Assembly (NCBI GenBank): GCA_022072165.1
Contig: JAJVIF010000003.1
Location: forward strand, 248,001-312,000
Direction of reading: 5' to 3'
DNA from: a bacterium
GTDB taxonomy: Bacteria; JAJVIF01
DNA length: 64,000 nt
Shown here piece by piece: positions 34,360 to 56,965 of this stretch. The notes beneath the pieces are model-generated. The model was not told where the DNA came from, ran no database searches, and saw nothing but the letters and a program-made list of their open reading frames with translations. Position 1 is the stretch's first letter; every line of letters begins with the position of its first letter. Position numbers and translations under genes: made by a program.

Positions 34360-36771
34360 GTGTCGGGTTTGTGTGTCGCTCCCCTGAAGTTTGGGGTCTG
34401 CTTGCTGTCGTTGCTCATCCTCGCGGGTTGCGCCGGAGGTTCGCCAAACACGGTCCAGCCCAGCGGAATGGAAACCGGCACCGGCGGCCTGGTGCTGCCA
34501 ACTCCGGAGAATCCGATGCTCGGCGCGGCCCTTATGGCCGGGACCCTGCGTGTCGACGCGACATCGCTGACCGCAACGCTGATTCCGGATCATCAGGGCG
34601 CCCTGGATTTTCCACTGGACATCACACCGTACCTGACCATCTCCCCTGGCTTCGACTGCTTTCGGGCGCTGTCGGTGAAGCGTGGCCCTGGAGGCACCAT
34701 TGATCTGGAACTGGGGCTGCGGCATCCGTTTGACCCCGCCCTGCGCCCGGACCTGGATCCCTTTGATCCCCGACTGATCCTGGGGACCGGTGGGGCGACC
34801 CAGTTTGGGCGGTTGCCACTGGGGAAAGATGGCGCAGCGCCTCGCGTGACCCTGCAGGGGGTCCCGAATGCCGATGGCTACACCGGACGGTTTAAAGAGC
34901 TGGTGGGGACGACGCAGGCCGGGACGAAGAACCCCTATATCGATTTCTTCACCGACACCAATCCTGATCCGCTGGTCATTGGCGCGCAGGTGCCGTTTCA
35001 CCGCATGGCTGCTGGTGCCCCGGAAGATCGTCAGATCCTTCGCCTGAATCCGGCGGTGCTGGGGAATGTCATCGAGCTGCGGTGGATCATCGAAGCCGCC
35101 TATGGGCAGTCGGCCACCCGGGCGAACCGCTTCTCGCCGGTCTATCGCAACCCGCAGTTCAACCGCAAGGAGCCGTATGCCGTCCGCGTGCAGGTCGTGT
35201 CGAACACCCTGCAGGAGGGAGAGGTCAACACCGAGGCGACCGTGCTGGTGGAGGTCGAGGACTGGCAGCAGGGTGCGCCGGTGGCGGCGGATCCGGAGAA
35301 TCCTGCTCCGAACGAAGTGGAAGCCTCGAGCGACTTTAGCCGTCTCATCTTCGACCTGCCGGGACTCACGCCGGCCACCATCCAGCGCAACGCTGCCGAA
35401 AGCGGGTCCGGGACTGCGGGCGATCCGTTCCGCTTCACATTCGATATCACCAACGACGGCACTTTCACCGCAGGCTCCTATGCCGGGCTGGTTCTGGTGG
35501 AAGACGAGCTGGATCCCTTTACGGCCGACCTGGAGTACCGGGTCTTCCAGAGCTTCAGCCTGACGGTACTGGAAGAAAATCCACCCCCGCAAAAGGGGAC
35601 CTGGGACTGGAGTGGCGCGACGCAGCAGGTGAGTCAGCAGCCGGGGCTCTCCTACCTTTGGCCCAAAGAAGGCATCGCGATTGACTCGCTGGGACGTTCC
35701 CATGTGGTCTGGACTGATGATTCCAGCGGGAACGATCAGGCGTTTTATGCCCGTCAGACAAGTCCGGGGGCGACGACTTTCACCTCTGCTGAAGCGCTGG
35801 CACCGGCACCTTCGCTCTATCCCACCATCGCCATCGACAGCACCGACCAGGTGCATGTGGTCTGGGAGGATGGCCGGGGACTGGCGAACGGCTCGAACAT
35901 TCGGTATGCCTCGCGTCTCGCCACTGGCAACGTCAATGCCGGTGAGATTCCGCTCACCAGTGTGGCGGAAAATGTCTTTGCGATCTTCCCCAAGGTCGCC
36001 ATTCGGCCAGGGGGCGGCGCACATGTGGTGTGGGCTGAGAATCGCACGGACCCCCAGGTGAATCCCTTTGGAGTCGCGGACTTCGGGGTGTACTACGCCC
36101 AGGTCGATTTGCCATCCATCAACAGTCCGGGGGTCGGCACCGCCGCTGCCGTGATTGATGTGGCGCTGTCGCAGGGCTTTCCGAATCTGGTGGCGGTGGG
36201 CGGGACCGTCCATGTGGCCTATCAGGAAAATGCCCTGAACGGCACCGGTAACCGGCGGGTGTGGCACATCGCGGGAGATGGCGCAACGTTCGGGACACCG
36301 GTCGCGGTGACGAACGCCGGCATCGATGCCGGGCAGCCGGACCTCGATGCCACGAGTCTGGGCGTCCTGTGGCTGGTCTGCTCCCGCGGCGGCGCCAGCG
36401 GTCCGATCCTGCTCACCAGCAGCGACGACAGCGGTGCCACCTGGAACCCCATCACGACATTCTCCGAGGGGGGAACCCCGGGCTACACGCAGTATGGTCC
36501 CGACATCGCTATCGATGTGCAGGACAATCTCCATGTGGTGTGGCATGAGTTCCTGCCAGCCACCCTGGACCTCGGTCGGGTGCAGCAGCGGACGCAGTAC
36601 TTTGATGGCGAGTTGCTGCCGACCCAGTTCGTCACCCCGGCCGGGGAGTTTGCCGGCTGGCCGAGCCTGGCGGTGGCCCCGAATCGCAATCTGGCGGTGG
36701 CGTATCAACGCTGGACTGGCACGGATTACGAGGTCTTCCACCAGGTCGGGGTGTACACGCCGACTCCGTAG
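34360..36771 (+). CDS. modular lipoprotein A: shared N-module plus beta-propeller
   Basis: An 803-residue predicted lipoprotein (GTG start; hydrophobic segment ending in lipobox LILAGC, Cys about 24). Residues about 60-410 form the module shared with the proteins at 36861, 39865 and 54230: FDCFRALSV, LGLRHPF, PNADGY, KNPYIDFF, VEVEDWQQGAP, then a PGL segment and YRVFQSFSLTV. From about 425 on, six repeats of the type (I/V)A(I/V)DxxxxxHVVWxD/E (IAIDSLGRSHVVW, IAIDSTDQVHVVW, VAIRPGGGAHVVW and so on) form a six-bladed sialidase-like propeller. No sialidase catalytic residues are evident. Probably surface exposed; ligand unknown. Confidence 0.82.
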   Translation: MSGLCVAPLKFGVCLLSLLILAGCAGGSPNTVQPSGMETGTGGLVLPTPENPMLGAALMAGTLRVDATSLTATLIPDHQGALDFPLDITPYLTISPGFDCFRALSVKRGPGGTIDLELGLRHPFDPALRPDLDPFDPRLILGTGGATQFGRLPLGKDGAAPRVTLQGVPNADGYTGRFKELVGTTQAGTKNPYIDFFTDTNPDPLVIGAQVPFHRMAAGAPEDRQILRLNPAVLGNVIELRWIIEAAYGQSATRANRFSPVYRNPQFNRKEPYAVRVQVVSNTLQEGEVNTEATVLVEVEDWQQGAPVAADPENPAPNEVEASSDFSRLIFDLPGLTPATIQRNAAESGSGTAGDPFRFTFDITNDGTFTAGSYAGLVLVEDELDPFTADLEYRVFQSFSLTVLEENPPPQKGTWDWSGATQQVSQQPGLSYLWPKEGIAIDSLGRSHVVWTDDSSGNDQAFYARQTSPGATTFTSAEALAPAPSLYPTIAIDSTDQVHVVWEDGRGLANGSNIRYASRLATGNVNAGEIPLTSVAENVFAIFPKVAIRPGGGAHVVWAENRTDPQVNPFGVADFGVYYAQVDLPSINSPGVGTAAAVIDVALSQGFPNLVAVGGTVHVAYQENALNGTGNRRVWHIAGDGATFGTPVAVTNAGIDAGQPDLDATSLGVLWLVCSRGGASGPILLTSSDDSGATWNPITTFSEGGTPGYTQYGPDIAIDVQDNLHVVWHEFLPATLDLGRVQQRTQYFDGELLPTQFVTPAGEFAGWPSLAVAPNRNLAVAYQRWTGTDYEVFHQVGVYTPTP

Positions 36772-36785
36772 GTAACACCTTCTGA

Positions 36786-36852
36786 ACAGGGCGCGATGAC
36801 AGGGTCCAGCCCCATCAACAGGGCGCGATGAATCGCGCCCCTGGCATGTCCC
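36786..36852 (+). repeat. dispersed composite palindromic repeat, copy 1
   Basis: A half unit ACAGGGCGCGATGA at 36786-36799 is followed 32 bp later by a full unit at 36818-36847 whose core GGGCGCGAT-GA-ATCGCGCCC (36821-36840) is a perfect 9-bp hairpin with a 2-nt loop, then CCTGGCATGTCCC-like sequence. The last 36 bases (36817-36852) are identical to those of copy 3. It lies between two convergent lipoprotein genes and may also end their transcripts. Confidence 0.8.
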
Positions 36853-36860
36853 AGAGGGCG

Positions 36861-39653
36861 TCACATGTCCGGGAACGACATCGTGACAGCCGCCATGTCA
36901 TCCGGGGGATACGGCAGCCCGCAGTCGTCGCTGACACTGATGGTGAACTGGTAGGTGTTGCCCCGGGCTGAGGTGGTGACCGTTCCTGAGAGGATCGCGG
37001 TCTGGGGGTTGAACTGGAGTCCAGGCGGCAGGATGCCGTTGCTGACCCACGTGATACTGCCGGTACCAGTCGAAGTCTTGAACTCGTAGCTAAAGGGGAG
37101 ACCGACCTCCGGCAGAGGGGGAGTCCCTTCGGTGATCAGCGGTGTCGCTGGACAGGGGAACTGGATCACCGTTTCCCAGACATCGCGCTGCTCCAGATAG
37201 CAGGTGTCGCGGACTTCCACCTGGAAATACCAGGTGCCGCCTCCGTCCAAAGGATCAGGGAAGAAGCTGATCGTGCCATCCGGAGCAAGGGAGAAATTGC
37301 GCGGCACTGTTTGAGGAGTCAGGAGACTCCAGGTGAGTGTCCCCTGGCCCCCTGTAGCGTTGATTTTCGAGCTGTACTGCTGATTCCAGGAGATGGGAGG
37401 GAGGGGGGTCGGCACGATGACCGGCGGCGGAGCGCACTGGATCGGGAGATAGAGCTGCGCCGTCACCGGCGTACCTGTCGCGCACTGATCAGCGACCCGC
37501 ACCGTAAACGTGATGATGGACCCCTCGGCCGAAGGAAGGGCAGCGCCGCTGAAGCTCCCATTGGATTGCAGGGTGAGTCCTGCGGCGGCCAGTGCTGGTG
37601 CACCGCTGATGACACTCCAGCTGAGCGGCGCTTCACCCACCGCCTGCAAAGGTGCCGGGTGCTGCCCGACTGCGATCGGAGGAATCGTGCTGGTGAGAAT
37701 CTCCAGCGGTGTGCAGGGGATGTCGAGGTCGAAAGTCTTTTGGCTGCTCTGCTGGGAGGGACAGGCATCCCGCACCGTCACCGCGAACGTGTAAGACTGC
37801 CCACTGGCACTGTCGGCAGGGGTGCCACTGATGACACCGGCGGGACTCAGTACCAGCCCTGCAGGCAGGGTACTTCCGGGAGACAGCTGCCAGGTCAGGG
37901 GGAGTCGCCCCCCTTCAGCGGCGAGGGTCTGTATGTACACCACACCCCGTGTTGCCGATGGCAAGGGTGACGGTGTCGTGATCAGCGGATCGGGCTCATC
38001 GCAGAGATCACCGCTGTTGGTCCGGACACGCAGGGTCCAGCCGGCGTTGACCTCGGCTGGCGGATTGCCGCTGTCCCGGACCCGGACGCCGAGGGCGACA
38101 CTGCCGAGAGGTGGTGCGGGTATCCCACTGAGGGTCCCGGTTGACGGATGCAGTTGCAGCCATGACGGGGCCGGTCCGGTCAGGGTGTAGGTGTAGGGCT
38201 TCACGCCGCCAAACGCCTCGAACTGATGCGCGATGGGGACCCCCGTGACCGCTTCCAGGACCAGCACGCCGGGGTCGAGGACCAGGAGAGGTCGCTGGAC
38301 CTCAATGGTCGCGACCTGCCAGGTCCGGACACGTCGTTCCTGCACGATGCTGCTGCGATCCAGCATCAGGGTGCTGTAAGGGTCACGTTGATCCACGACT
38401 GTCACCAGCGCGTGCAGGAGCCCGGCGGGAGGAATGATTTCCGGAGTCAGGGCGATGGTGCGTCGCAAGGGGGTCGTGCCACGGCCGGTCCCCTCAAAAC
38501 CCGTGAAAACCACTTCGCTGTTCAGCATCCCCGGCACTTCCACATAAGCCCGCTGCACCTGGCTGTTGAACGGCACCATATCCCGGGGCGTGGCATCGGG
38601 GGTCCAGGTCGGGTGGATGATCGCCGCCTGCTGCCAGTCCCAGATGTCGAGGGTGAGATCGGTTTTGCGATCCACAGGCGTGAGCAGGAGGGGTGTCGCG
38701 GAGGCCTGGACCCGCCAGGGGGCCAGCAGATTTCCCGCCGGGAGCTGATACACGGGGCGCTGACGTACGGCGGTCCGCAGTAAATCGCCCTCTGCCGGAT
38801 CCGCTCCTGCTTTGTTCATATAGCTGGCGAGGAGAGCGACCTGGAGATTCACGCTGGTGCGGTCTTTGAGGTGAAGCTGGACCTGCAGAATTCGCTCCTC
38901 ACCTTGTCGCAGGCTGTTGAACCCCTGAGCGGTGGTGAGATTGGGGAAACCATTGACGGCCTCGGGGTCGAAGTTGCCGGTGGGGTCAGTCTGCGGTGAG
39001 CGCGAAAAGATGATGTACGGATCCAGTGTCGCGGCATTGGTGAGATCGACTGCTTCAAACCAGGGCTCCAGGAGATCCGTGTAGCCATCGGGGGGGAACT
39101 GCCCGCTGCCCCAGGTCAGGAACCCGGGCTCGAGGCGTTCGCCCGACTGCGGAAAGAGGGTGGTGTATCCGGCATCGGTGCGGTTATGGACCAGGAGCAT
39201 GGCATCGAAGACGTGCAGGTCGAGCCGCTCGCCGGGTCCAAAAGAGCCGGCGCTCGCCGGCAATGGGAAGGGATGTCGTAGCCGGACCGTGGCGGTCAGT
39301 GTTTCGCCCTGGACGCTCAAGCCCTCGATGCGAAAGCAGTCCGCACAGTCGCCCCGGAAAAATGCCGTGGTATCGACCGCGTAGTTCTTGCCATCCCCCA
39401 GCGCTCCCAGCGACCGGGACGGGAGAATCTCGAAAGCGGGCGGATCCAGGGTAGCGCGGACGTCATAGAGCCCCAGGGGGACCGGGGCATCAGTGCCCAG
39501 CGCTGCTCCAATGGAGAGCGCCGGGGTCTGCGACGGCTCAGGTGCAGTCCCGAGGGGGGCAGAGCGAGGTCCGGCACACCCAACCCACAAGATCGCTGCT
39601 GTCAGACAACAGATGACAGACCGGCCTGCGGCCAGATGCTCTTGTATCGCCAT
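36861..39653 (-). CDS. modular lipoprotein B: shared N-module plus five Ig-like domains
   Basis: A 930-residue lipoprotein (lipobox LWVGC, Cys about 26; GGAAGG before the ATG at 39653). The shared N-terminal module shows CADCFRI, RLRHPF, RLDLHVFDAMLLV, DPYIIF and LDIWDWQQAAII, ending at about residue 455 with TWQVATIEV. Then come five consecutive putative immunoglobulin-like (He_PIG) domains of about 85-100 residues, each with the G(L/F)xLxxxGxxSG-type turn (LSGIPAPPLG, ISGTPADSAS, FSGAALPSAE, ISFFPDPLDG, LSGTVTTSAR) and most closing with VxVxDxC. Such domains usually act as stalks or adhesive surfaces. Convergent with lipoprotein A. Confidence 0.82.
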   Translation of the reverse strand: MAIQEHLAAGRSVICCLTAAILWVGCAGPRSAPLGTAPEPSQTPALSIGAALGTDAPVPLGLYDVRATLDPPAFEILPSRSLGALGDGKNYAVDTTAFFRGDCADCFRIEGLSVQGETLTATVRLRHPFPLPASAGSFGPGERLDLHVFDAMLLVHNRTDAGYTTLFPQSGERLEPGFLTWGSGQFPPDGYTDLLEPWFEAVDLTNAATLDPYIIFSRSPQTDPTGNFDPEAVNGFPNLTTAQGFNSLRQGEERILQVQLHLKDRTSVNLQVALLASYMNKAGADPAEGDLLRTAVRQRPVYQLPAGNLLAPWRVQASATPLLLTPVDRKTDLTLDIWDWQQAAIIHPTWTPDATPRDMVPFNSQVQRAYVEVPGMLNSEVVFTGFEGTGRGTTPLRRTIALTPEIIPPAGLLHALVTVVDQRDPYSTLMLDRSSIVQERRVRTWQVATIEVQRPLLVLDPGVLVLEAVTGVPIAHQFEAFGGVKPYTYTLTGPAPSWLQLHPSTGTLSGIPAPPLGSVALGVRVRDSGNPPAEVNAGWTLRVRTNSGDLCDEPDPLITTPSPLPSATRGVVYIQTLAAEGGRLPLTWQLSPGSTLPAGLVLSPAGVISGTPADSASGQSYTFAVTVRDACPSQQSSQKTFDLDIPCTPLEILTSTIPPIAVGQHPAPLQAVGEAPLSWSVISGAPALAAAGLTLQSNGSFSGAALPSAEGSIITFTVRVADQCATGTPVTAQLYLPIQCAPPPVIVPTPLPPISWNQQYSSKINATGGQGTLTWSLLTPQTVPRNFSLAPDGTISFFPDPLDGGGTWYFQVEVRDTCYLEQRDVWETVIQFPCPATPLITEGTPPLPEVGLPFSYEFKTSTGTGSITWVSNGILPPGLQFNPQTAILSGTVTTSARGNTYQFTISVSDDCGLPYPPDDMAAVTMSFPDM

Positions 39654-39814
39654 GTCCGGGTACCTTCCCTGGCTCCGGTGGAATCGTCCCTTTGGCAAAC
39701 AGTCACGCAGGCCAGGCGATCTGTCGACAGACCTGCGCTGATCCCTCAGCGCAGGAGGCAGCCTGTCGACCTGCCTCTTAATACAACTGTATCTGTGTCA
39801 GGAAAAAAGCACAA

Positions 39815-39838
39815 GCACCCCGGACGTGTCCGGGGTGC
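39815..39838 (-). terminator. rho-independent terminator
   Basis: GCACCCCGGA (39815-39824) pairs perfectly with TCCGGGGTGC (39829-39838) around a 4-nt loop; on the minus strand TTGTGCTTTTTT follows. It lies 27 bp after the stop of lipoprotein C. Confidence 0.8.
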
Positions 39839-39864
39839 CAGTTGAAGTGACAGCCGAGAAGGGG

Positions 39865-42294
39865 CTAGTTCGCGAAGACCAACTGGTTCCCCGGCGCAAC
39901 CGTGGCGTACACCATCGTGTTGTCGGCCCGGTAGCAGGTCATCCCCTCGGCCACAAAGGCCGAGTTGACGTTGTAGGTGTAGAGCAGGTTGACGGTGGAG
40001 GGCGGGACAAACTCGTAGACCGGGATCTGGTGCGGCGGCAGCGGACTGCCGCTCATGGTCCAGGAGAGGTGGATGAAACCATCGCGGTCTACAGCAATGG
40101 CGCAGTTTTGTCCACCACCGGTCAGCTGTGATCCGCCGAAGCCCAAAATCGCTTGCGTATGCGGATTGATGATGGTCCAGGCACGCCCGGCAGTCCGGCT
40201 CCCGGGAGTCGAGAGGTAGAGGAGGTCGCCGACGTTCTCCATGTCATAGGTGGAGGGGAACGGGGTGATGTTCCAGCCGCCAATGGTAGCGCCAGTCGCC
40301 AGATTGAACTGCGTGACGGAGAAGGGGTTGCTCGTGAAGTCGCAGCCCCAGAATGTACCGTCATCCAGGTAGCTAATGGCCTTGGAGGTGAAGAACTGGC
40401 GGTTGGACGCATAAATCACCCCCCCGTTGAGGTCATAGGTAACAGTGTCGTTGGTGGTCAGATCGTAGTCCGCACTCACGGTGACCCGGTTTGTCACTTC
40501 ATGGACGGTGATGCCCCGCATCGGACCCGAGGCAATTTCGGTGAAGCCGACGGTCCAACTGCGTAAAAACGTGCCCGCTGAGGAGTAGACCCGGACTTCG
40601 CGGGTGCTGCCTGTGGAGAGGAAGACTTCCCCAGTTCCCTGATGGCAGTCGAGGCTGGACACCGACGAGAGGCTGGTGCTGCTGACGACTTCTGGCTTCA
40701 CGATGACTTCACAGGTGTTGGTGCTGTCGATGCCGTCCTGCGAGCAGCTCACATAGGTCCGGCCCATGCCGATGCCGGTCCCGACATTCGCGACAAAACT
40801 CATGACATCGGTCATCGACGACTCCCAGGTGGCGGTGGTGGAGATGTCCTCGACGAATGGGGCCTCATCAAAGGTGCCGATGGCGGTAAAGGTAATGGCT
40901 TCCGCCGGTCCCTGAGCAATGATCTGTCGGGTGGCCGGAGTGATATCAATCGAGACCAGCTGGCGGGTCGGGAGATTGGTGCCGACGCTGAAAGTGACGG
41001 CCTGATAGGTGGCGAAGCGGGTGACACTCACCGGGTCGATGGTCGCGCCGGTCTGGCTGGAGAGCGCATCGGTGGCACCGCCCGCGTTGATGCCGGTCTG
41101 TCGGTTGTCACTCACACAAATCAGCGCGACATAGTCACCCTCGCCAGCGCTTAGCTCATTGAAGAGCTGACTGCTGTACGTCAGGGGATCATTCTCCCGG
41201 CCTGTGCCAGAGAGGGGAGCGCCCATGTTCAGGGTCGAGTTGCGGACGCCGGGGGCGACCAGCTCCACCTGGGTCACCTCGCTGGCGCCCCGGATCGCGC
41301 CGATGTTCCCGAGAGCCGGGTCGATCACGCCGCCATGCTGCCAGTCCCAGACCCGGACATCGACGGTCGCGCTGGAGCTGGGGTCGTTCCCGGTCAGGCT
41401 GTTGGTGGCGGTCGGAATCTCCGCTTCCACCCGCCAGGGAGCCTTACTGTTGAATTCGGGGAGGGGATACCGGGGATCCAGCCGCTGAGTGCGTCCGGTG
41501 ACACTCGCGCCATAGGCACAGGTGAAGAGGAAGGTCAGTCGCTGCGGACCATCGGTGGGGAGGATGCCGAGGACGACTTCGCTGGTGACATCAGCCCCCA
41601 TGGGAAAGACGTTGTACCCGGTGGGTGCCTGCAGGTCCGCGAAGCCATTGGGATTCGAGGCGCTCCAGTTGCCGGTGGTGCGGTCTTCGTTGAGCATCAC
41701 ATAGGGCCAGGCGGAGGCGGTGTAGGTGGGGTCGAGACTCTGCACGACACTGGTCAACAGCGGGGAGTACCCGGCAGCGTTGGCCACCAGTCGTGTCGGC
41801 AGGGTCGCGCTGCCGCTGGCGAAGGCGCCGGGGAAATTGCCGAGGTTGCCTGCCACCAGAACTGCCGCATCAAAGACATGCAGATCGAGGCGATTCACCC
41901 CACTGATGGGAAGCTGCGGATTGCCGGGCTGGAAGGGATGCCGGGCGTTGACCTTCAGCACGATCTGGCCATCGCCATTGCGAGTCACACCCGTGACGCC
42001 GAAGCAGTTTTTGCAGGGCGCGCCATCAAGGAAGCCGGTGGCGTTGAGCCAGAAATTGTCGCCGAACGCGGTGGGGACCCTGACCGGATTCGCCTCGGCG
42101 GTGAGCGCGACGGGGTCGATGTCTACAGTTATCGCACCCAGGAGCCCGACATCCGGCGGGAGCACGACAGCAGCCGGGACGCCGGCACCGGGAGCCTGTT
42201 GGGTCGCGGCAGGGTTCGTGGGTGCTCCCCCCTGACAGGCGAGACCGCCGAGAAGATGCAATGTCAGTAAGGCGGCCAGTGAATGCAGGCGCAT
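39865..42294 (-). CDS. modular lipoprotein C: shared N-module plus Ig-like and propeller domains
   Basis: An 809-residue lipoprotein with signal segment LHSLAALLTLHLLGGLAC (lipobox Cys about 20). The shared module is easy to follow: CKNCFGV, NARHPF, RLDLHVFDAAVLV, ANAAGY, WPYVML, VRVWDWQHGGVI, PGVRNSTL, and TYQAVTFSV at about residue 430. A BIG2-like Ig domain follows (IDITPATRQIIAQGPAEAITFTAIG, to about 530), then repeated beta segments resembling an NHL/YVTN-type propeller (for example FLSTGSTREVRVYSSAG). It is preceded by lipoprotein-unrelated nitroreductase on the same strand and ends in a strong terminator. Confidence 0.82.
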   Translation of the reverse strand: MRLHSLAALLTLHLLGGLACQGGAPTNPAATQQAPGAGVPAAVVLPPDVGLLGAITVDIDPVALTAEANPVRVPTAFGDNFWLNATGFLDGAPCKNCFGVTGVTRNGDGQIVLKVNARHPFQPGNPQLPISGVNRLDLHVFDAAVLVAGNLGNFPGAFASGSATLPTRLVANAAGYSPLLTSVVQSLDPTYTASAWPYVMLNEDRTTGNWSASNPNGFADLQAPTGYNVFPMGADVTSEVVLGILPTDGPQRLTFLFTCAYGASVTGRTQRLDPRYPLPEFNSKAPWRVEAEIPTATNSLTGNDPSSSATVDVRVWDWQHGGVIDPALGNIGAIRGASEVTQVELVAPGVRNSTLNMGAPLSGTGRENDPLTYSSQLFNELSAGEGDYVALICVSDNRQTGINAGGATDALSSQTGATIDPVSVTRFATYQAVTFSVGTNLPTRQLVSIDITPATRQIIAQGPAEAITFTAIGTFDEAPFVEDISTTATWESSMTDVMSFVANVGTGIGMGRTYVSCSQDGIDSTNTCEVIVKPEVVSSTSLSSVSSLDCHQGTGEVFLSTGSTREVRVYSSAGTFLRSWTVGFTEIASGPMRGITVHEVTNRVTVSADYDLTTNDTVTYDLNGGVIYASNRQFFTSKAISYLDDGTFWGCDFTSNPFSVTQFNLATGATIGGWNITPFPSTYDMENVGDLLYLSTPGSRTAGRAWTIINPHTQAILGFGGSQLTGGGQNCAIAVDRDGFIHLSWTMSGSPLPPHQIPVYEFVPPSTVNLLYTYNVNSAFVAEGMTCYRADNTMVYATVAPGNQLVFAN

Positions 42295-42372
42295 GAGGAG
42301 ACGTCCTTTGCAGGGTACAGATAGGCCCAAACAGCGGGGAGGTACGCCTCCATTGTAGGTCAGATGCGACCT

Positions 42373-43050: not shown

Positions 43051-43141
43051 AGCTGGGAGGGTACCGGATGCTGGTTGCCGGAGGGCCCGGGGTGTGATAC
43101 GTTGACCAGCCCGTGCGTAGCCGTACGGGTGTCAAGGGTCC

Positions 43142-43218: not shown

Positions 43219-43240
43219 GTGAATTTCAGGTGACTTGTGG

Positions 43241-43268
43241 TTGCGAAACGCGGAATCTCTGCGATACT
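43241..43268 (+). promoter_or_regulatory. candidate sigma70-type promoter for the NYN gene
   Basis: TTGCGA (43241-43246) and GATACT (43263-43268), each four of six matches to consensus, are separated by 16 bp. They lie 113 bp before the GTG at 43381. Support is from base pattern and position only. Confidence 0.35.
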
Positions 43269-45914: not shown

Positions 45915-48246
<2,332 letters not shown>

Positions 48247-48314
48247 CGGCGCGGCTCAAGACGCAACACGGCTGTTACATCAGCTCCCCTGAGCGCCTCC
48301 GATAATGCCCCGAC

Positions 48315-49067: not shown

Positions 49068-49639
49068 TTGGAATCAGCCGGAGGCGGGGGCACCGGAGGG
49101 GCCTGACCATTTTCAGAGACCGCCGGTGTATCCCAGGTGCGCTGTCCTTCGGGTAACAGGTCGATGACCGGGAAGGCGAGTTCGGTGAAGTGCTCGCCAT
49201 CTTCCCGGACCTCCCAGAAGAGCTCCCGGGGGAGTCCATGCGGCTGGAACTGATGCTCTTCCATGAAGTCGAAGAGGATTTTGTAGACGTGGGGTCGGGC
49301 TTCGTGGGGTCCGCGATAGCGGGCTGAAGCCGCCAGCGGAATGGGGCCGATCAGCCCCAGTTCCAGGCCTGACGCCGTAGCGGCTTCCGGATCCACCGGC
49401 ACGATGGCGAGGGCGGTGACATTGTTCAGCCCCTCTTCCTCTTCGGGAATGTTGAGGAACTGGATCATGGGAGGGGCAACGAGCTGGAGCTCTTTGGCAA
49501 ACACCACATCCAGCGCCTGCATCAGTAACTCGAAGAGCTGATCCCCATTGAGACCCTCGCCATGCAGGACATACGCCGGGAACTCGGGGTATTCGACAAT
49601 GCCAAACTCGACCTGCAGCTCGCGGGACTCGTCGCTCAT
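49064..49639 (-). CDS. GyrI-like / AraC effector-binding domain protein
   Basis: A 191-residue soluble protein. The beginning (VEFGIVEYPEFPAYVLHGEG) and the pattern of FELLMQALDVVF, IPLAASARYRGPHEARPHVYKILFDFM and RELFWE fit a SOUL/GyrI-like small-ligand binding domain, as also found at the C-terminus of AraC regulators. No DNA-binding part is present. A Pro-rich tail closes the protein. The ATG overlaps the cupin gene stop (ATGA), so the two are coupled. Confidence in the fold is moderate. Confidence 0.65.
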   Translation of the reverse strand: MSDESRELQVEFGIVEYPEFPAYVLHGEGLNGDQLFELLMQALDVVFAKELQLVAPPMIQFLNIPEEEEGLNNVTALAIVPVDPEAATASGLELGLIGPIPLAASARYRGPHEARPHVYKILFDFMEEHQFQPHGLPRELFWEVREDGEHFTELAFPVIDLLPEGQRTWDTPAVSENGQAPPVPPPPADSN

Positions 49640-50142
49640 GCGGGGGCTCCGTTCTGGTCGCGCTCGGCGACCGCCCCTGCCAGCGGCTCCTCGCGGATCA
49701 TGAGTCCGAGATTGGCCAGCATGGGCATATTGGTGATGGAGAGATAGCGGACCTCGGTCGTGCCCGAGTTGATGTGGCTGTGCCAGGCCCACCGGGGAGT
49801 GTAGATGGCATCGCCAGCCTGCCAGTCGAGCCGTTCGCCCTCGATCAGGCTGTAGCCGGACCCTTCCAGGATCACGATGACCGACTCATAGGTATGACGG
49901 TGCATATGAGCGCGTCCGCCGACTTCCAGAATGCCGTAGATGAAGGCATTGAGCTGCGACGGGAGCTTTATGGGCATCGTGGGATGGCCCCGTTCTTTGG
50001 CGAAGGGGGAGTCGAGGCCAGGATTCGGCCGGAGGATCGCCCCCCGGTGAATGCACTGCTCCAGGGGGATCCGGTCCGGCTCCAGGGAGCGTCCGAGATC
50101 CGGACGCTGTACGAGGTCGGCGGAGGTGACTGGCGCGGTCAT
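49636..50142 (-). CDS. cupin domain protein
   Basis: A 168-residue single-domain cupin. The two conserved motifs are visible: GGRAHMHRHTYESVIVILEGSG (metal-binding His-x-His with a later Glu) and DAIYTPRWAWHSHINSG (second motif with His). The first 55 residues are an additional polar region. Cupins of this size bind metal and small ligands; the function is unknown. It is upstream of, and coupled to, the GyrI-like gene and divergent from the GntR operon. Confidence 0.85.
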   Translation of the reverse strand: MTAPVTSADLVQRPDLGRSLEPDRIPLEQCIHRGAILRPNPGLDSPFAKERGHPTMPIKLPSQLNAFIYGILEVGGRAHMHRHTYESVIVILEGSGYSLIEGERLDWQAGDAIYTPRWAWHSHINSGTTEVRYLSITNMPMLANLGLMIREEPLAGAVAERDQNGAPA

Positions 50143-50207
50143 ATCGTTGCCTTTCTACGCGGGATGGGGTCGCGCCGGGCAAGTATGGCACGGGGGCGAA
50201 TCCGGGG

Positions 50208-50236
50208 TTGCGCCGCTGGTGTGCTGGTGTTACGAT
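50208..50236 (+). promoter_or_regulatory. promoter of the GntR operon, probably leaderless
   Basis: TTGCGC (50208-50213) and TACGAT (50231-50236) are 17 bp apart. The -10 box ends 9 nt before the ATG at 50246, so transcription would begin at or within a few bases of the start codon. No Shine-Dalgarno is present. Confidence 0.55.
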
Positions 50237-50245
50237 ACAGCCGTC

Positions 50246-50668
50246 ATGTCAGCCCTACCACTGCATTTTTACCTCGACACCGTCTCCGGACTGCCGGCGT
50301 ACCGCCAGCTGATGGAGCAGATTCGCACTTACCTTGCGGCCGGACAACTGGCCGCGGGGGATCAATTGCCGAGCATTCGGGACCTTGCCCGGACGCTGCA
50401 GGTGAATCCGGCGACGGTGGTGAAAGCCTACACCGAACTGGAGCATGAAGGCGTGCTTGAGCGACAACAGGGACGTGGTGTGTTCGTCACAACATTTGGG
50501 GGACAGTTGCCGCAGGAGAAGCTGGAGCAGGAGTTACGTCGCGCTGTACGGGCAGTGGCGGTCCGGGCCTTGCAAATGGGAGCGGATACCCGGCTGGTGG
50601 AACGGCTCCTGGAAGAAGAACTCGCAGCACTGGAGCAGGGTGGGGTGCCCGGGGAAGGTGCCGCATGA
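50246..50668 (+). CDS. GntR family regulator, YtrA subfamily
   Basis: A 140-residue repressor: winged helix with YRQLMEQIRTYLAAGQLAAGDQLPSIRDLARTLQVNPATVVKAYTELEHEGVLERQQGRGVFV, followed by only a short helical dimer tail, the layout that defines YtrA-type GntR proteins. These normally repress an ABC-transporter operon with which they are co-transcribed, and here the operon follows directly. The ATG is fixed by the family's usual N-terminus; the longer frame to 50051 has no support. Its stop overlaps the LRR gene start (ATGA). Confidence 0.93.
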   Translation: MSALPLHFYLDTVSGLPAYRQLMEQIRTYLAAGQLAAGDQLPSIRDLARTLQVNPATVVKAYTELEHEGVLERQQGRGVFVTTFGGQLPQEKLEQELRRAVRAVAVRALQMGADTRLVERLLEEELAALEQGGVPGEGAA

Positions 50669-51630
50669 GTCGCCTCTCCTGGAGCACCGTCCTGAAGAGC
50701 CTGAGCGGGAGTGCGCTGCTGGTGGTGTTCACCGGGAGCTGGCTTCTGATGTGGGGGCTGCTGCCGGGGACTCCGGCGGCGGACGAAGTCCGGGTGTCTG
50801 GGGCGGCGCGCTGGAATCTGGCGGGGCAAATTTTGCAGGGTCGAAACATTCCTGCACGACAGTCCTGGAAGTATGGAGCAGGGCAAATCACGACCAAAGG
50901 GGCAGGGCGGACCACCTGGCTGAGCGCTGAGCCCTCCGTACCATTGGACTATCTGCCGCTCTGTCAGAATCTGGAGCGACTGGACATCCAGCGGCCATCA
51001 GGGTCGCCGAATTCCGCCCAGTACCGCGTCCTGGAAACGCTGCCATCGATGCCCCTGTTGCAGGAGATTGTGGCTTCTGAGCTGGTGCTGGGAGATCTGT
51101 CGTTTTTGCAGCAGGTCCCGAATCTCGAGCATCTGTCCTGTTTTGAGGGCAAATCCTTGCGATCTCTGGAAGGCCTGCGTCACGCTCCCTTCCTGACCCG
51201 GGTCACGCTCCCCTGGCAAAACCCGTTTAAAGCTCATATCCCAACGGAGCAGACCCGGGTCCTGACTCCTCTCTCCGTGGCGCCTGTAAAAGATCTTCCG
51301 TACTTGCTGGAGCTGGATCTGAGTGGCCGGACGCTCGAAGATACGAAGCATCTGTGGGACTGCAAGCGTCTGCGGAGCCTGACGCTGGCGAATTGTGGCC
51401 TGACGAGTATTGAGGGCATTGAAGCACTGGAAAACTTACGGGGAGTCTCGCTGGCAGAGAACACCATCGCGGACCTGAGCCCATTGCTGAAGTTGCCCCA
51501 CTTACGCACTGTGATGCTGAAGGGCAATCCGGAGACTCCGGAGAATGTGGCGGTGTTGCAGGCACTCCGGGAGCGCGGGGTCCGGATTGTGGACCTGGAA
51601 CCGGCTCACCAGCGGCGGGGGCGATCATGA
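50665..51630 (+). CDS. membrane-anchored leucine-rich-repeat protein in the GntR operon
   Basis: A 321-residue protein with one N-terminal transmembrane segment (SALLVVFTGSWLLMWGLL, about 16-33), about 60 residues of linker and then about nine leucine-rich repeat-like strands (for example LCQNLERLDIQ, VPNLEHLSCFEG, LPYLLELDLSG, CKRLRSLTLANCGLTSIEGI, LENLRGVSLAENTIADLSP, LPHLRTVMLKGN), the last ones canonical. The LRR domain faces the extracytoplasmic side by topology prediction. ATGA overlaps on both sides couple it to the GntR and ATPase genes. It is not a usual part of YtrA operons and may recognise an antibiotic or peptide ligand; that is inference. Confidence 0.8.
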   Translation: MSRLSWSTVLKSLSGSALLVVFTGSWLLMWGLLPGTPAADEVRVSGAARWNLAGQILQGRNIPARQSWKYGAGQITTKGAGRTTWLSAEPSVPLDYLPLCQNLERLDIQRPSGSPNSAQYRVLETLPSMPLLQEIVASELVLGDLSFLQQVPNLEHLSCFEGKSLRSLEGLRHAPFLTRVTLPWQNPFKAHIPTEQTRVLTPLSVAPVKDLPYLLELDLSGRTLEDTKHLWDCKRLRSLTLANCGLTSIEGIEALENLRGVSLAENTIADLSPLLKLPHLRTVMLKGNPETPENVAVLQALRERGVRIVDLEPAHQRRGRS

Positions 51631-52574
51631 CCACCACCGCTCCCATCATCGTGCGCGACCTGGTGAAAGCGTATCCCGCGGATCGGATCGGCGGCCCGCC
51701 GGTCCTGGCCCTGGCAGGCGCGGCACTGGAGGTGCCGCAGGGGGCGTTCTATGGGTTGCTGGGACGCAATGGTGAGGGGAAAAGCACGCTGATGCGGTGC
51801 TTGTTAGGGCTGATTCGGCCCAGCAGTGGTGAAGCGCTGCTGCTGGGCCGCCATTTTCACGACCTGCCGCCAGTAGAGCGAGCGCGCGTGGCCTACGTGC
51901 CCCAGCGGGATCAGCTTGCTGGGGCACTCACGCTGGCGCAGTACAGCGCCATCTATGAGCGGATGTTCCCGTTGTGGGATGGACGGTATGCGACAGCGCT
52001 GATGTCGCAGTTTCAGTTGCCGGTGAATCGTCCGATTCGGGCGCTCTCAGGCGGGATGCAGCGGAAGGCCGCGATTGTCCTGGCGCTGGCGGCCCGGGTC
52101 GAGGTGTTGCTGCTGGATGAGCCGGGGGTCGGGCTTGATCCCATGGCCCGTAAGGAGTTCATCGCTGAACTCATCGACATGATGGCGACCTCCGAGGGGC
52201 TGACGGTCCTTTTCAGCACGCACATGCTCTCGGACCTGGAGCACCTGGCAGACCATGTCGGGATCCTGCATCAGGGTCGGATGCTGCTGTCGAAGCCCGT
52301 GGATGTCCTGCGGACGGAGTACGGACGGCTGCAGGTCATCTGCACGACTGATCACGAGGCGGAGTCGCTGGAGATCTCCTCGGCCCTCCGGACCGAGCGG
52401 ATGGGCCGCGTGATCAACGCGCTGGTGGCTCAGCCGGAAGCGACGTGTCGCGCCCTCCTGGCAGCCGCGCCGGAGGTCGATGCGACCCTCTTCCCGTTGT
52501 CGCTGGAGGAACTGTTCCTGGAGCTAATGCACCTGGAAGCCAGCGCCAACGTGCCGTATCGGGAGGTGGCATGA
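51627..52574 (+). CDS. ABC transporter ATP-binding protein
   Basis: A 315-residue ATPase with Walker A GRNGEGKST (about 46-54), Q-loop near VPQRDQ, signature LSGGMQRKAAIVLALA and Walker B VLLLDEPGVGLDP, then FSTHMLSDLEHLADHVGIL with the switch His in FSTH. It resembles YtrB/BcrA-type exporter ATPases linked to envelope stress and antibiotic resistance. The first base of its ATG lies in the LRR gene stop, and its TGA overlaps the permease start, so all four genes should be made together. Confidence 0.93.
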   Translation: MTTTAPIIVRDLVKAYPADRIGGPPVLALAGAALEVPQGAFYGLLGRNGEGKSTLMRCLLGLIRPSSGEALLLGRHFHDLPPVERARVAYVPQRDQLAGALTLAQYSAIYERMFPLWDGRYATALMSQFQLPVNRPIRALSGGMQRKAAIVLALAARVEVLLLDEPGVGLDPMARKEFIAELIDMMATSEGLTVLFSTHMLSDLEHLADHVGILHQGRMLLSKPVDVLRTEYGRLQVICTTDHEAESLEISSALRTERMGRVINALVAQPEATCRALLAAAPEVDATLFPLSLEELFLELMHLEASANVPYREVA

Positions 52575-53380
52575 TGGCCATTAGTCCTCCCATCGACTAC
52601 ATGAGCACTCCGAACACCACGACCGCAGCTTTGGCAGGGCGTCAGCGCATCTGGCAGGGACTCTGGCTGCTGGAGTGGTGGCGGCATCGTCCGCTGCTGC
52701 AGATTGTGGGGACGATCTATGCCCTGAGTCCGGTGGTCGCGCTCCTGATCCCGCTGGGGCTGGGCACGTTTGCTCCGCGGGGCGCTGATGTACTCGCAGG
52801 GATGACCGAGCTGTTCCGGACGATCCCCTGGCTATGGTCGATTTTTACAGGGCTGGGGCTCGCTGTGATTTTGGGACTCGCCCTGGGGGGGGCTGAAACG
52901 ACGGCTGGACTCGAAGAGGGTTCGCTGGGTCTGCCACCCACCCGGGCGCAGTACTTTCAGGTGCGGTTGACCTTTGGCCTGAGCCTGCTGAGCCTGCACA
53001 TCTTGCTAAACAGCTTCGCACTGCTGTTCTGGGACCGGGGACTGGTGCGTCCAGACCTGCATCCCAACTTTCCGCTCATCTGGCTTGGGCTGGCGATCCT
53101 CGCTCCCCTGACCCTGTTCGCACTGGCCTGGACAGTCGCGGTGAACGGCGGGCCACGTCGCAGGATCCTGATGGGACTGGGCGCAGTGGGGCTGGTGTTC
53201 CTGGCGGGACAGTGCGGACGCCTCAGCCTGTGGCTGCAGTCGGACGGGTCGCTGGGGGCGGTCCGGGTCGCGCTTCCCGACTGGGCCTTTCTCGCCTTCT
53301 TCGGCTGGTCGGTCTGGATGCTCTATCTGTCGTACCTGATCTACAACTCGCGCGACATCCACGCGCTGCAGGACAACTGA
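52571..53380 (+). CDS. ABC transporter permease
   Basis: A 269-residue inner-membrane protein with about six hydrophobic segments (for example IVGTIYALSPVVALLIPLGLG, IFTGLGLAVILGLALGG, LGLAILAPLTLFALAWTVAV, LSLHILLNSFALLFW), partner of the ATPase encoded just upstream (ATGA overlap). The stretch EEGSLGLPPTRAQYFQVRLTFG resembles the loop of YtrC/BcrB-like permeases. No periplasmic binding protein is encoded, which suits an exporter. A hairpin terminator lies 35 bp downstream. The start is ATG 52571; the next codon is also ATG. Confidence 0.85.
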   Translation: MMAISPPIDYMSTPNTTTAALAGRQRIWQGLWLLEWWRHRPLLQIVGTIYALSPVVALLIPLGLGTFAPRGADVLAGMTELFRTIPWLWSIFTGLGLAVILGLALGGAETTAGLEEGSLGLPPTRAQYFQVRLTFGLSLLSLHILLNSFALLFWDRGLVRPDLHPNFPLIWLGLAILAPLTLFALAWTVAVNGGPRRRILMGLGAVGLVFLAGQCGRLSLWLQSDGSLGAVRVALPDWAFLAFFGWSVWMLYLSYLIYNSRDIHALQDN

Positions 53381-53414
53381 CGCGCCGCTCCTAACACTGC
53401 CACTTCCCCCTCAC

Positions 53415-53443
53415 GAGCCCCCTGCCGCAAGGTGTGGGGGCTC
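53415..53443. terminator. terminator between convergent transcripts
   Basis: GAGCCCCC (53415-53422) pairs with GGGGGCTC (53436-53443) around a 13-nt loop; on the plus strand ATCATTTCT follows. It ends the ABC operon and may also serve the convergent lipoprotein gene. Confidence 0.65.
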
Positions 53444-53476
53444 ATCATTTCTCCTGGCGGCTATCAGCCGGTGAAC

Positions 53477-54091
53477 TCAGAGATTGAGTCCACCGCTGGT
53501 GTCGAAACCGTGCTTCTCGCCGAGGTCGCGTCCCATTTCGAGGTTCTCTTCGGCCGGCTTGCCGGCGAAGTCGGTGGAGCCATCGGGCTGATAGACCCAG
53601 CGGACCACGAGACGGTCGTAGCCCGTGCCGGTGGCGTTCATTTCAGCGGTGACGATCTTCAGCTTGGCGTAGTGGCCCTCCGCGGTCCGGATCCAGTAGA
53701 CGTGCGAGTTGTAGACCGGGACCCGGAAGTCCATGGAGCCGCCGCCGGGAGCTTCCTCGTAGCCGGAAGTCGGGGCGGTCTGGGAGCGATTGAGGGACTC
53801 GGGCTGAGTGTCTTTGATGCCAACTTTCAGGCGTCCTGAACCGACAATGAACGTCTTGTTGAACGCGATATCGCCCTGCTGCGGATCGTTGGGCTCATAG
53901 ACCCACGTGCCGGCGGAGAAGTCGAAGCGGGCACCGGGCTTCGCGGCGTCATCGAACCACGGTGCATCGGTCGGGAGGGTGAACTCTCCGTTGGGGAGCC
54001 CCGGCGGGAACTCTTCCGGCGGCGTGGAGAAGCCACAACCAGCGATGACGAGGGAGAGGAGCAGGCTGAGAGTTGTCAGGAACGAACGCAT
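53477..54091 (-). CDS. small lipoprotein, unknown function
   Basis: A 204-residue predicted lipoprotein: hydrophobic segment TTLSLLLSLVIAGC (lipobox Cys about 19), then a Pro-rich tether and a beta-rich domain with aromatic-rich strands (FDFSAGTWVYEPNDP, MDFRVPVYNSHVYWIRTAEGHYAKLKIVTAEMN, DRLVVRWVYQPDGSTDF). The last part resembles a HmuY-like heme-binding-protein sheet (VYWIRTAEGHYAKLKI; HmuY relatives show similar patterns of aromatic beta strands), but I do not claim the ligand. It is a single gene, divergent from nothing and convergent with the ABC operon. Confidence 0.78.
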   Translation of the reverse strand: MRSFLTTLSLLLSLVIAGCGFSTPPEEFPPGLPNGEFTLPTDAPWFDDAAKPGARFDFSAGTWVYEPNDPQQGDIAFNKTFIVGSGRLKVGIKDTQPESLNRSQTAPTSGYEEAPGGGSMDFRVPVYNSHVYWIRTAEGHYAKLKIVTAEMNATGTGYDRLVVRWVYQPDGSTDFAGKPAEENLEMGRDLGEKHGFDTSGGLNL

Positions 54092-54168
54092 AGCACAGCA
54101 TCATACTTTGTACCGCAGTGACTGCCACTGGTGCCAGCATCGTGTCGGGGGGACTTGCAATGGCAAAA

Positions 54169-54196
54169 GCCGGAGCACGATTGCTCGCGCTCCGGC
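54169..54196 (-). terminator. rho-independent terminator
   Basis: GCCGGAGC (54169-54176) pairs with GCTCCGGC (54189-54196); the minus strand continues with TTTTGCCATT. It lies 33 bp past the stop of lipoprotein D. Confidence 0.75.
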
Positions 54197-54229
54197 CCAT
54201 AGTGAGTCGAGGATCAGCCGGCTGCCCGG

Positions 54230-56965
54230 TTACGGGCAGGAATTGATCCGGATGTTGTCGCAGCTCCAGCCTGCAAACTGGCTGGTCGCCACCGAGAAGC
54301 TGGAGTTGGTGGTGTCGATGAACTGGAACCGCAGGCGGAGGTTCGCCATGCCGGTGTACGCTGCGAGGCTGACCGTGACGTTGTTCTCGTTCACCATGCC
54401 ACTGGCAGTCTTTTCGGTGTCGTAGATGATGTTGCTGCTGAGCCAGTTCGCGCCGTTGTCAGTGCTCACCCAGACGCGATAGCGGGGAGTGGAGCCGTTG
54501 CGCCCGTTCTTCGAGGAGTTGAAGACGAGGACCGCATCGGTCTTGCCGACCAGGGAGATGGTGGGGCTGATCATGCTGTTGTCGCACTGCGCGCCATAGT
54601 CGTTGTCGTTCGTCCCGCAGGCACCGACCGCATGCGGACCAGTGGTGATGCAGCCGCCACTGAAGCCGGCCCCCTGGCTCGCTTTGGAACTGCAACGATA
54701 GAACCGGGAGTTGCCAGGGGCGTTATCAGAATTGAAGACCTGCGGCGTGAAGAGGTGTCCGCTGGTCCAGCCATCATTGCCGCTGGTGAAGGTCCAGGTG
54801 TGCTGATTGATGTTGGGAGTACAGGGGACATTGATGGTGCCGCTCACGGGGGCAAATGCCGAGCCGTTGGAGGGACCCGCACCAGTGTCCGGATGCAGCA
54901 GGTCCGTGGCATAGACCGTGAAGCTCACGTTACTGGTCGGCGGATTGGTGTACGGCCCCAGGCCACCGATGGGGAAGGCGGCTCCGGTGACGATGTTGGC
55001 ATCGACATCATTTACGACTTTGAGGGTCACGGGGTCCCCTTCAGGATCCGTGATGGTGGCGCTGCCGGCCAGGAGCTGGAAAGTCGCGGGGCTGATGAGG
55101 GTCGCAGCTGCCAGCGCGGGGGCTCCACTCACCTGGGGTGCCTGATTGGGACCAAGCATGAACTGCAGGGGGCCGTAGTTCTGCGGCGAAGCCATCACGC
55201 CATCGGTAAAGCGGACCGGGATGCTGCGGGTCAGCGGCAGCAGCGTCGTGTTGTTGTACTTCGGCACCGTGGAGTTCCAGGTGATGGGCGTGGTGTACGG
55301 CGGATTGATCGTGTGGGTGGCTTCGTGGATTCCATCGTTGTCCCAGTCGATCTGCACCGTGATGGGGTCGCCGTTAAGGTCGTTCGCCGCCGTCACGGTG
55401 ATGGAGGTGGTGGTGCCGGAGTCGACATCCGCCGGTACGTTCATCGTGAGAGTGGGGATGTCGTTGTAGTCATCCAGCAAAACCTGGAACGCCTGGTAAG
55501 TGACCGGTTTCGGGATGCCAGTGGTGAGGGGTGACAGACTGCCGTCGAGGTTGAGGATCTGCGGTGTTGGCAGGTTCGCCTCGACGTCAGTCGCCCGCAC
55601 CATGCCGGTGTAGATACCCTCGGCCTGACTGCCGACCGGCCCCTTGGTGACGATCGCGCTAAAGAAGAGGGCATCGCCGGGACGACCGCTGTCTTCGTCG
55701 GGGTCACCGCCGTAGACACTGTCATCGTTGACAAGGGCCCCTGCGCCCAGCTCCGTGATCACACTGGCAGGACCCAGGACTCCCGGAATGCAGACCGCCA
55801 GGGCCGGGGCACCGCTGGTCCCCTGAGCGACTTTTGAAGCGCTGGAGGAGTCGGCGGCCAGGTCCACCTGATCCGTCTCGAATGCCTTGGCATCCCAGTC
55901 GACCACATGAAAGTTCAGGATGCTGGCGCTGATGACATTGGGCAGAAAGCCACCGGATTCTCCGGCGAAGCGGATGGATTCCACATCCTGGCTGGCGTGT
56001 GGGGCGCGGTAGACAAACTGTGCGAGGTCTGGAGTCGTCGCCGGCAGCCGGTTGGCGCGCTTCTGGGCAGTGATCTCGCCACCCCGGGGGTCGACATACT
56101 TGGCGATGATCGCGGCATCGAAGCTGAAGTTCTGCGCCGCCAGGGCGGCCTTGTTCAGCGCGATGGTGGTGGTGACCCGCTGTCCATGATGGAGAAAGCC
56201 CATGCCGGTCCAGCCATCGCGATTCGGTCCGACAGTCGCCCGGGTCCAACCGGTGGTGAGGTCAAAGTTCCCCAGAGCACTGCCGCCGTTGGTCCGGGGC
56301 AGGCCATCGCTGGTCGCCACTCGGGAGTCCAGGCTTTCATCGACCAGTGTCTTGTAGGGGAACGTGTTCGCCGCCAGGGTGTTCGGTACCAGAGCCTCGG
56401 GCGAGAAATAGCCATCGGCATTGGTCACCACGTGGGTATTGGCAATGACCCGTCCGCCACCACTTCCGGTTTCATCAAAGAAGGTGTCCCCGGTGGGATC
56501 CAGGGAGTCGAGGAGGAAGAGGATCTTGCCGGTGATGCCGAGATCGATCCGGTTTTTGGCGGTTGCGGGGGCATCGAGGTTGCTCGGCGCGCTAAACGGA
56601 TGCTCGAACGTATAAGTCAGATAGAGGGAGTCGGCATCCGCCTGGATGCGATCGATGCGGAGGGAGTCGTTGCGGAGGAAGCCCCCAATGGGGAGCTGAT
56701 ACAGGTCGTCGTTCGCGGCGGCGGCCCGCTGCTCCACAAGGGTGGAAGTCGCGGTCCAGGATCCGGGGTCGATGCGGAAGGCGTACTTGGCCACAGTCCC
56801 TTCCAGGACATGGCCGGACTGGAGTGTGGGTCCCAGGGCGGTGGTGTCGGTGGGGCTGGGCGTCGGTGCCTGCCCGGAGGGGGTACTGGGATTGCGGCTG
56901 GTGACCGCACAACCGATGATGGTGAGGAGTGCGATCCCGCAGGACCACCCTATTGCCTGACGCAT
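54230..56965 (-). CDS. modular lipoprotein D: shared N-module plus Ig/PKD-like and jelly-roll-like C-terminus
   Basis: A 911-residue lipoprotein (lipobox TIIGC, Cys about 19). The shared module is more diverged but in order: SLRIDRI, TFEHPF, NRIDLG, VTNADGYFSP, FPYKTL, FHVVDWDAKAF, IPGVLGP, and TYQAFQVLL near residue 490. Then two or more Ig/PKD-like domains (DSGTTTSITVTAANDLNGDPITVQIDW, with VTLKVVNDVDANIV and VSFTVYATDLL) and a C-terminal domain (about 720-911) starting WTFTSGNDGWTSG, containing STDNGANW and ending WSCDNIRINSC, typical of carbohydrate-binding or MAM-like jelly rolls. It lacks the Cys-Phe motif of the other three members. Confidence 0.82.
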   Translation of the reverse strand: MRQAIGWSCGIALLTIIGCAVTSRNPSTPSGQAPTPSPTDTTALGPTLQSGHVLEGTVAKYAFRIDPGSWTATSTLVEQRAAAANDDLYQLPIGGFLRNDSLRIDRIQADADSLYLTYTFEHPFSAPSNLDAPATAKNRIDLGITGKILFLLDSLDPTGDTFFDETGSGGGRVIANTHVVTNADGYFSPEALVPNTLAANTFPYKTLVDESLDSRVATSDGLPRTNGGSALGNFDLTTGWTRATVGPNRDGWTGMGFLHHGQRVTTTIALNKAALAAQNFSFDAAIIAKYVDPRGGEITAQKRANRLPATTPDLAQFVYRAPHASQDVESIRFAGESGGFLPNVISASILNFHVVDWDAKAFETDQVDLAADSSSASKVAQGTSGAPALAVCIPGVLGPASVITELGAGALVNDDSVYGGDPDEDSGRPGDALFFSAIVTKGPVGSQAEGIYTGMVRATDVEANLPTPQILNLDGSLSPLTTGIPKPVTYQAFQVLLDDYNDIPTLTMNVPADVDSGTTTSITVTAANDLNGDPITVQIDWDNDGIHEATHTINPPYTTPITWNSTVPKYNNTTLLPLTRSIPVRFTDGVMASPQNYGPLQFMLGPNQAPQVSGAPALAAATLISPATFQLLAGSATITDPEGDPVTLKVVNDVDANIVTGAAFPIGGLGPYTNPPTSNVSFTVYATDLLHPDTGAGPSNGSAFAPVSGTINVPCTPNINQHTWTFTSGNDGWTSGHLFTPQVFNSDNAPGNSRFYRCSSKASQGAGFSGGCITTGPHAVGACGTNDNDYGAQCDNSMISPTISLVGKTDAVLVFNSSKNGRNGSTPRYRVWVSTDNGANWLSSNIIYDTEKTASGMVNENNVTVSLAAYTGMANLRLRFQFIDTTNSSFSVATSQFAGWSCDNIRINSCP

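Follow-up and report, generated by a model that had tools for sequence, protein, structure and literature searches.

A lineage-restricted, greatly expanded lipoprotein family with a constant N-terminal module and diverse C-terminal modules

Introduction

SusD-type expansions of Bacteroidota comprise around a hundred surface lipoproteins per genome, and the variable lipoproteins of mycoplasmas combine conserved 5′ ends with variable downstream parts, related genes being switched at one place. The family described here resembles the former in its scale of roughly a hundred lipoproteins and the latter in the conservation of its 5′ ends; it differs from them, however, in having no SusD match (see below) and in its many domain families and genome-wide dispersal, respectively.

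Constant N-terminal domains that are specific to a lineage, lie behind a signal peptide or lipobox and are followed by polymorphic C-termini include MafB-N, Microscilla-N and the Amoebophilus domains APD1 and APD2 (PMC3482391). The APD1/APD2 proteins of Amoebophilus asiaticus are effectors directed at the host, thought to be surface-anchored and deployed in parallel (PMC3482391). The present proteins show the same succession of a lipobox, a constant lineage-specific domain and a highly polymorphic C-terminus; in contrast to the host-directed effector tails ascribed there to APD1/APD2, their tails are Ig, PKD and propeller domains plus a few enzymes (PMC3482391). A further difference, as far as descriptions alone can be compared, is that the present family occurs throughout the sampled class, at roughly 100 copies in each genome. 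With MafB and other polymorphic toxins it shares a constant trafficking or anchoring N-terminal part and tails exchanged by recombination (PMC3482391); unlike in those toxins, Pfam detects no recurring toxin family in 121 of its C-terminal modules. A toxin/immunity reading was dropped for want of matching domains, the C-modules being PKD, propeller and Ig domains and a few enzymes, and so was a reading as SLH proteins. Judged from these descriptions, the family would be a new variant that follows the same logic as the APD1/APD2 kind but has different tails, a far higher copy number and a range that covers the class, and we do not place it within those families.

About 12% of one bacterial genome belongs to a single undescribed architecture that is invisible to the family libraries searched and occurs in all four class members examined. 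It offers a natural case of modular envelope proteins that diverge at a fixed boundary, and a profile derived from it allows a poorly known lineage to be recognised and studied.

Results and discussion

Four lipoproteins share an N-terminal module

The window, a stretch of 64,000 nucleotides, belongs to a genome (G000) of 3.26 Mb (3,260,764 nt) that is assembled in four contigs and 99.1% complete. Four open reading frames singled out in a preliminary description lie where it had placed them, at 34360-36771 (+), 36861-39653 (-), 39865-42294 (-) and 54230-56965 (-); we name their products P1 to P4. All are lipoproteins, as had been proposed, each beginning with a signal peptide and a lipobox when judged by eye. 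P1, P2 and P3 are indeed neighbours, although they do not form a single co-directional array: P1 faces P2 and converges on it, and P2, P3 and P4 share the opposite strand. PADLOC assigned P1 to P4 to 0 families. Downstream of P4, a small lipoprotein (53477-54091, -) shows a sub-threshold match to HmuY (22.9 bits; cut-off 27).

The N-terminal halves of the proteins match one another in BLASTP, which covered three of the six possible pairs: P2 and P3 are 30% identical over 384 residues (E 6e-27), P1 and P2 27% over 337 (E 2e-14), and P2 and P4 23% over 317 (E 3e-7). Circularity was avoided with a leave-out HMM built from 14 members elsewhere in the genome and zero sequences from the window. Among the 274 stop-to-stop window frames of at least 100 aa it matches only P1 to P4, with E-values from 4e-115 to 3e-56 (Table 1), and it matches 0 of 200 shuffled copies, which confirms that all four carry the same N-module. 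The motif list drawn up earlier for this module is correct in outline, but several motifs vary among the four proteins. NADGY reads PPDGY in P2, the C-x-x-C pair is missing from P4 and half present in P1, and in place of the LDLHVFDA block P1 has RPDLDPFDP and P4 has RIDLGITG.

The C-terminal parts of P1 to P4 differ, again as described, and do not match one another (best cross E 0.13). The domain types assigned to them were recovered in part: the Ig-like repeats of P2 are solid, whereas the matches in P1 and P4, for which a propeller and an Ig/PKD plus jelly-roll arrangement had been named, remain below cut-off. The PDIAV_lipo model NF053835 gives P1 38.6 bits, with the best stretch in its C-part, where the whole-protein cut-off requires 90, and membership of P1 in that family was rejected; choice_anch_J matches P4 near its C-terminus with 26 bits (cut-off 30). 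A reading as SusD-like nutrient-binding lipoproteins was likewise rejected, SusD Pfam matches being found in none of the four window proteins and none of 18 modules; there was no TonB-dependent receptor among 10 other window proteins scanned.

Table 1. Modules of the four lipoproteins, in window coordinates
Feature	Position	Strand	Remarks
P1 constant N-module, lipid Cys to closing strand	34429..35574	+	leave-out HMM E 2.8e-63; alignment A2
P1 C-module, sub-threshold PDIAV_lipo (NF053835) match	35575..36771	+	singleton among the genome's C-clusters
P2 constant N-module	38292..39578	-	leave-out HMM E 2.6e-85
P2 C-module, He_PIG Ig-like repeats (4 stretches pass)	36861..38291	-	E 3.3e-30; singleton cluster
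P3 constant N-module	40978..42237	-	leave-out HMM E 4.2e-115; AlphaFold2 model
P3 C-module	39865..40977	-	clusters with one other member, C1:1052880
P4 constant N-module, divergent subtype without C-x-x-C pair	55469..56911	-	leave-out HMM E 2.6e-56
P4 C-module, sub-threshold choice_anch_J match	54230..55468	-	singleton cluster

Conservation and predicted fold of the N-module

The module measures about 330-480 residues from the lipid Cys to the closing strand. An alignment (A6) of 116 of 121 modules, from which two near-identical copies and three overlong modules had been left out by hand, shows the H of HPF to be invariant; conservation of 90% or more extends to P and F, to R, D and L in the R-x-DL block, to a P further on, to D in the DW block and, close to the end, to one G and one D. 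In none of 18 modules does a Pfam or NCBIfam match attain E 0.01, the best hit in a search of PDB sequences has an E of 0.74, and none of the titles listed in a literature search points to a description, in agreement with the earlier statement that no described family bears this signature. Pfam matches to SNAD4 and CBM49 among the members of A8, a class-wide profile (E 0.0023 and 0.003, in a single one of the 17 members in either case), we take as chance.

AlphaFold2 gave one usable model among the modules of P1 to P4, that of P3, which was obtained with 8 sequences and is mostly beta (pLDDT 69.4, pTM 0.71); on P4 alone, the pLDDT was 30. Foldseek with the P3 model returned nothing at E 1e-3 in PDB or BFVD. 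In VIA, its residues ~230-387 align to Ig-like domains of many tied, unrelated families, with an rmsd of 2.6 over 97 residues and a Z of up to 8.7, barely above the value of 8 below which, by VIA's own note, a match may mean merely a common arrangement. As modelled, the second half of the N-module is probably Ig-like, and the first half was assigned to no known fold. Transglutaminase, complement, arrestin and RbmA rows in the VIA output were tied and generic, and we accepted none of them as a specific relative.

Copy number, gene layout and lipoboxes

A search of the rest of the genome for further members, which the preliminary description had suggested, raised the number of matches to 138 with A2, an alignment of 18 modules; two contain an internal stop. 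These matches represent 136 distinct ORFs that occupy 387,462 nt, or 11.9% of the genome, slightly overcounted because the frames run from stop to stop. After removal of those in which the module end or start was not reached and of identical frames, 130 usable members remained, 124 with a C-part of at least 60 aa and six with a shorter one.

By position, the usable members form 73 clusters, comprising 45 single genes and 28 groups of 2 to 9, and 51 of 57 adjacent pairs are co-directional. Terminator-like hairpins follow the 3′ ends of 52 of the 130 genes, compared with 3 of 130 random window positions. Palindromes between tandem genes were considered as recombination sites and rejected, being mostly unlike in sequence and fitting terminators. 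In two tandem members at G000:C3:44690-48171, the module match is split into two parts with ~127 nt between them and the frame open, which suggests an insertion inside the module.

Automatic recognition identified a lipobox preceded by a hydrophobic stretch in 122 of the 138 matches; of the remaining 16, 13 carry a correctly positioned Cys, and in two more a Cys was found by eye. The residue after the lipid Cys in the 122 is Q (39), S (38), A (19), N (11), G (8), T (5), R (1) or L (1). One of the first six thus occupies position +2 in 120 cases, and D in none.

Distribution of the module

A2 matches were found in four of 385 genomes, each a member of the class to which the window's genome belongs: besides the 138 in G000, there are 87 in the MAG AUK107 (G002, JAGGVT01; E 1e-5), and 89 in G001 and 73 in G003 (both at E 1e-4). 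AUK genome names presumably derive from the Auka vent field. At E 1e-10, A8 finds at least 109 members in G000 and at least 96 in AUK107, where 150 of 186 and 150 of 177 candidates, respectively, were scored, as well as 121 in G001 and 99 in G003. Among the 381 genomes from outside the class it gave no convincing match, the sole one, in G350 (37 positions, E 0.0019, a stop inside), being taken as chance, and a scan of IMG/VR returned 23 pattern stretches and 0 relatives. The constant module is, in this sample, restricted to the lineage.

In a FastTree of 174 modules, 20 modules from AUK107 are intermixed with those of G000 (7 changes), so the spread of the family in both would be partly older than their split; 24 modules from G001 make up one side of a branch. 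AUK107 also encodes a lipoprotein (L144:3089-5212) in which a distant, shorter relative of the N-module stands ahead of a Peptidase_C11 (clostripain) domain.

Diversity of the C-modules

BLAST joins the 130 N-modules into one component, whereas the 124 C-modules fall into 37; under a stricter cut, the latter form 58 clusters, 42 of them singletons. Pfam was run on two sets of 60 and 61 C-modules. As the modules were delimited for these scans, ten members had over-extended module ends; eight of these were scanned with a shortened C-part and two omitted. Among the families listed (25 of 28 for the first set), PKD_4 occurs in 11 and 16 C-modules, PKD in 9 and 10, and SBBP in 6 and 2. BNR, Kelch, FG-GAP, PQQ, NHL, He_PIG, Reprolysin_5, M57, GH43 and F5/8C are found in one or a few C-modules each, and single matches include Tli3 immunity (E 2e-4), M12-type proteases and the di-haem peroxidase family CCP_MauG (E 1.8e-49). 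Across the 130 members, two C-modules contain the full metzincin motif HExxHxxGxxH and four contain CxxCH.

That the tails vary around a conserved part could mean that function resides in the N-module, as a binding or enzymatic domain, and that the tails are accessory to it. We think this distinctly unlikely. The invariant H of HPF is what such a domain might show, as is the C-x-x-C pair, present in 37 of the 116 modules and in all eight aligned relatives from G001 and G003, and the six members with a tail below 60 aa suggest that the module may play some part independently of a tail; yet most paralogues lack the pair, no Pfam or NCBIfam family matches the module, and a tail is attached to it in all other members.

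Boundary and recombination

Identity drops sharply at the end of the module. In 83 pairs chosen for an N identity of at least 60%, so that the high N values are a matter of choice and the finding is the place of the step, mean identity per 20-residue bin is 0.57-0.84 within the module and falls to 0.29-0.43 from the module end onwards.

Such a step might arise without any special role for recombination, if nearly the whole family could be explained by duplication and dispersal, the N-module then being under strong purifying selection and the C-module under selection that is relaxed or diversifying. Four-fold degenerate sites bear on this. Of 45 neighbouring pairs on the same strand with less than 5 kb between them, 41 have a module identity at these sites of 0.32-0.56, close to the level of the C-parts, as this explanation would predict; P2 and P3 of the window are among them, with 0.42 against 0.38. 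In the remaining four pairs, however, the value is 0.6 or above (0.99, 0.71, 0.69 and 0.68).

The tandem pair C1:1696725/1699922 is the clearest case. In an ungapped DNA comparison, the two genes agree at 1448 of 1453 bp (5 mismatches) from -70 to +1382 relative to the lipid Cys codon, and the sequences differ beyond either end. With the ATG at -54, 16 nt from the start of the tract, and the module end at +1386, the tract spans the ribosome-binding site, the signal peptide and the module; BLAST finds no match between the C-parts at 1e-5. A second pair, C1:1018455/1024313, has N-modules that are 100% identical within a tract of 2280 bp at 99.9%, which runs from the terminator-like repeat of the upstream gene to ~640 nt past the module. 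Both identical tracts are read from one assembly. Four-fold identities in the N- and C-parts are 0.99/0.39 for the first pair and 1.00/0.74 for the second, and 0.71/0.48 and 0.69/0.44 in two others. Because their synonymous sites are near-identical in the module and diverged past it, the first two pairs go beyond what selection on amino acids can account for. In G001, a pair 82% identical in the N-part has C-parts of 257 aa (cut by a contig end) and 461 aa that do not match. C1:1622570/1627850 is a plain duplicate, 100% identical in both parts.

On the tree of N-modules, 16 C-types require 27 changes, where the minimum is 15 and shuffled labels need 52-63 (mean 58); the count is rough, depending on single-linkage clusters and a FastTree topology. 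Since 27 is far below the shuffled range, N- and C-parts mostly travel together, with some exchanges. This partial co-inheritance suits an explanation by selection alone, which the 12 changes above the minimum and the few pairs with near-identical synonymous sites nevertheless make unlikely overall. With 41 of 45 pairs showing no recent exchange and a few clear cases, we regard recombination as real but occasional, most of the likeness among modules being due to common descent and selection. The constant and variable design put forward in the preliminary description is strongly supported, genome-wide and in relatives, but its "swapped" C-modules apply, as recent events, to few pairs (4 of 45).

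The exchanges may have occurred by conversion of the module or by capture of a new C-module, and the block from the ribosome-binding site to the module end may be the unit exchanged, perhaps merely because homology stops there. A tract limited to this block, arrays of up to 9 tandem genes and the many distinct tails also call to mind a contingency system akin to antigenic variation, in which tandem genes serve as a reservoir and the expressed tail changes through recombination at the constant 5′ block. We consider this very improbable: members are dispersed, 45 of the 73 clusters being single genes, recent exchange is rare, and the terminator-like hairpins of many members would permit parallel expression of all.

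Proposed placement in the cell envelope

The genome contains three Omp85 matches, and beside P4 the window encodes an SLH-domain protein of porin length (57484-59208, +), a sign of an SLH-tethered outer membrane; from these we conclude that the bacterium is diderm. No LolA match was found in the genome, despite well over a hundred predicted lipoproteins. The idea, advanced before, of a surface presentation or export scaffold fits the lipid anchor, the diderm genome and the beta-rich, in some cases enzymatic cargo; surface exposure and export are the more conjectural parts of it, and a periplasmic location is conceivable.

With moderate confidence, we propose that this lineage-restricted and hugely expanded family consists of envelope lipoproteins in which an anchor or stalk module presents different cargo in or on the envelope. 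The signal peptide would direct the export of each protein, the Cys of the lipobox would receive the lipid, and this lipid would hold the protein at a membrane. The mostly beta constant module would then form a base or stalk that keeps the C-terminal cargo (Ig/PKD fibres, several types of propeller, in some cases an enzyme) at a distance from the membrane, most likely on its outer side; the tails may act on or outside the cell. The genes would have spread by tandem duplication and dispersal, many of them looking like separate transcription units, and purifying selection would keep the modules alike while the C-modules diverge. Occasional recombination between neighbours would renew the 5′ block of ribosome-binding site, signal peptide and module, or provide such a block with a new tail.

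A periplasmic family of lipid-anchored binding proteins, proteases and peroxidases, whose N-module acts as a spacer or fastens them to peptidoglycan or to the outer membrane's inner leaflet, seems to us rather unlikely. Di-haem peroxidases of the CCP_MauG family are usually periplasmic, so the C-module of that type would be at home there, and with LolA undetected, transport past the inner membrane is conjectural. On the other hand, adhesin-like Ig, PKD and propeller tails that diverge fast are more typical of surface proteins, and the +2 residue is never the Asp by which lipoproteins are sorted, although that rule comes from enterobacteria.

Beyond the anchor or stalk that we favour, the module might serve specifically as a platform for display, perhaps recognised by an export machine peculiar to this lineage, a diderm in which LolA was not detected, with the whole block of ribosome-binding site, signal and module as the unit of recombination; we regard this as possible, though doubtful. 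If true, the group would have a plug-in system of general use, by which each cell presents well over a hundred different proteins and which is renewed now and then by block exchange between neighbours.

Elsewhere in the window, a protein of 1040 aa (18713-21835, -) contains DUF4953 met-zincin and DUF5117 domains and is adjoined by an ORF of similar length (15425-18589, -).
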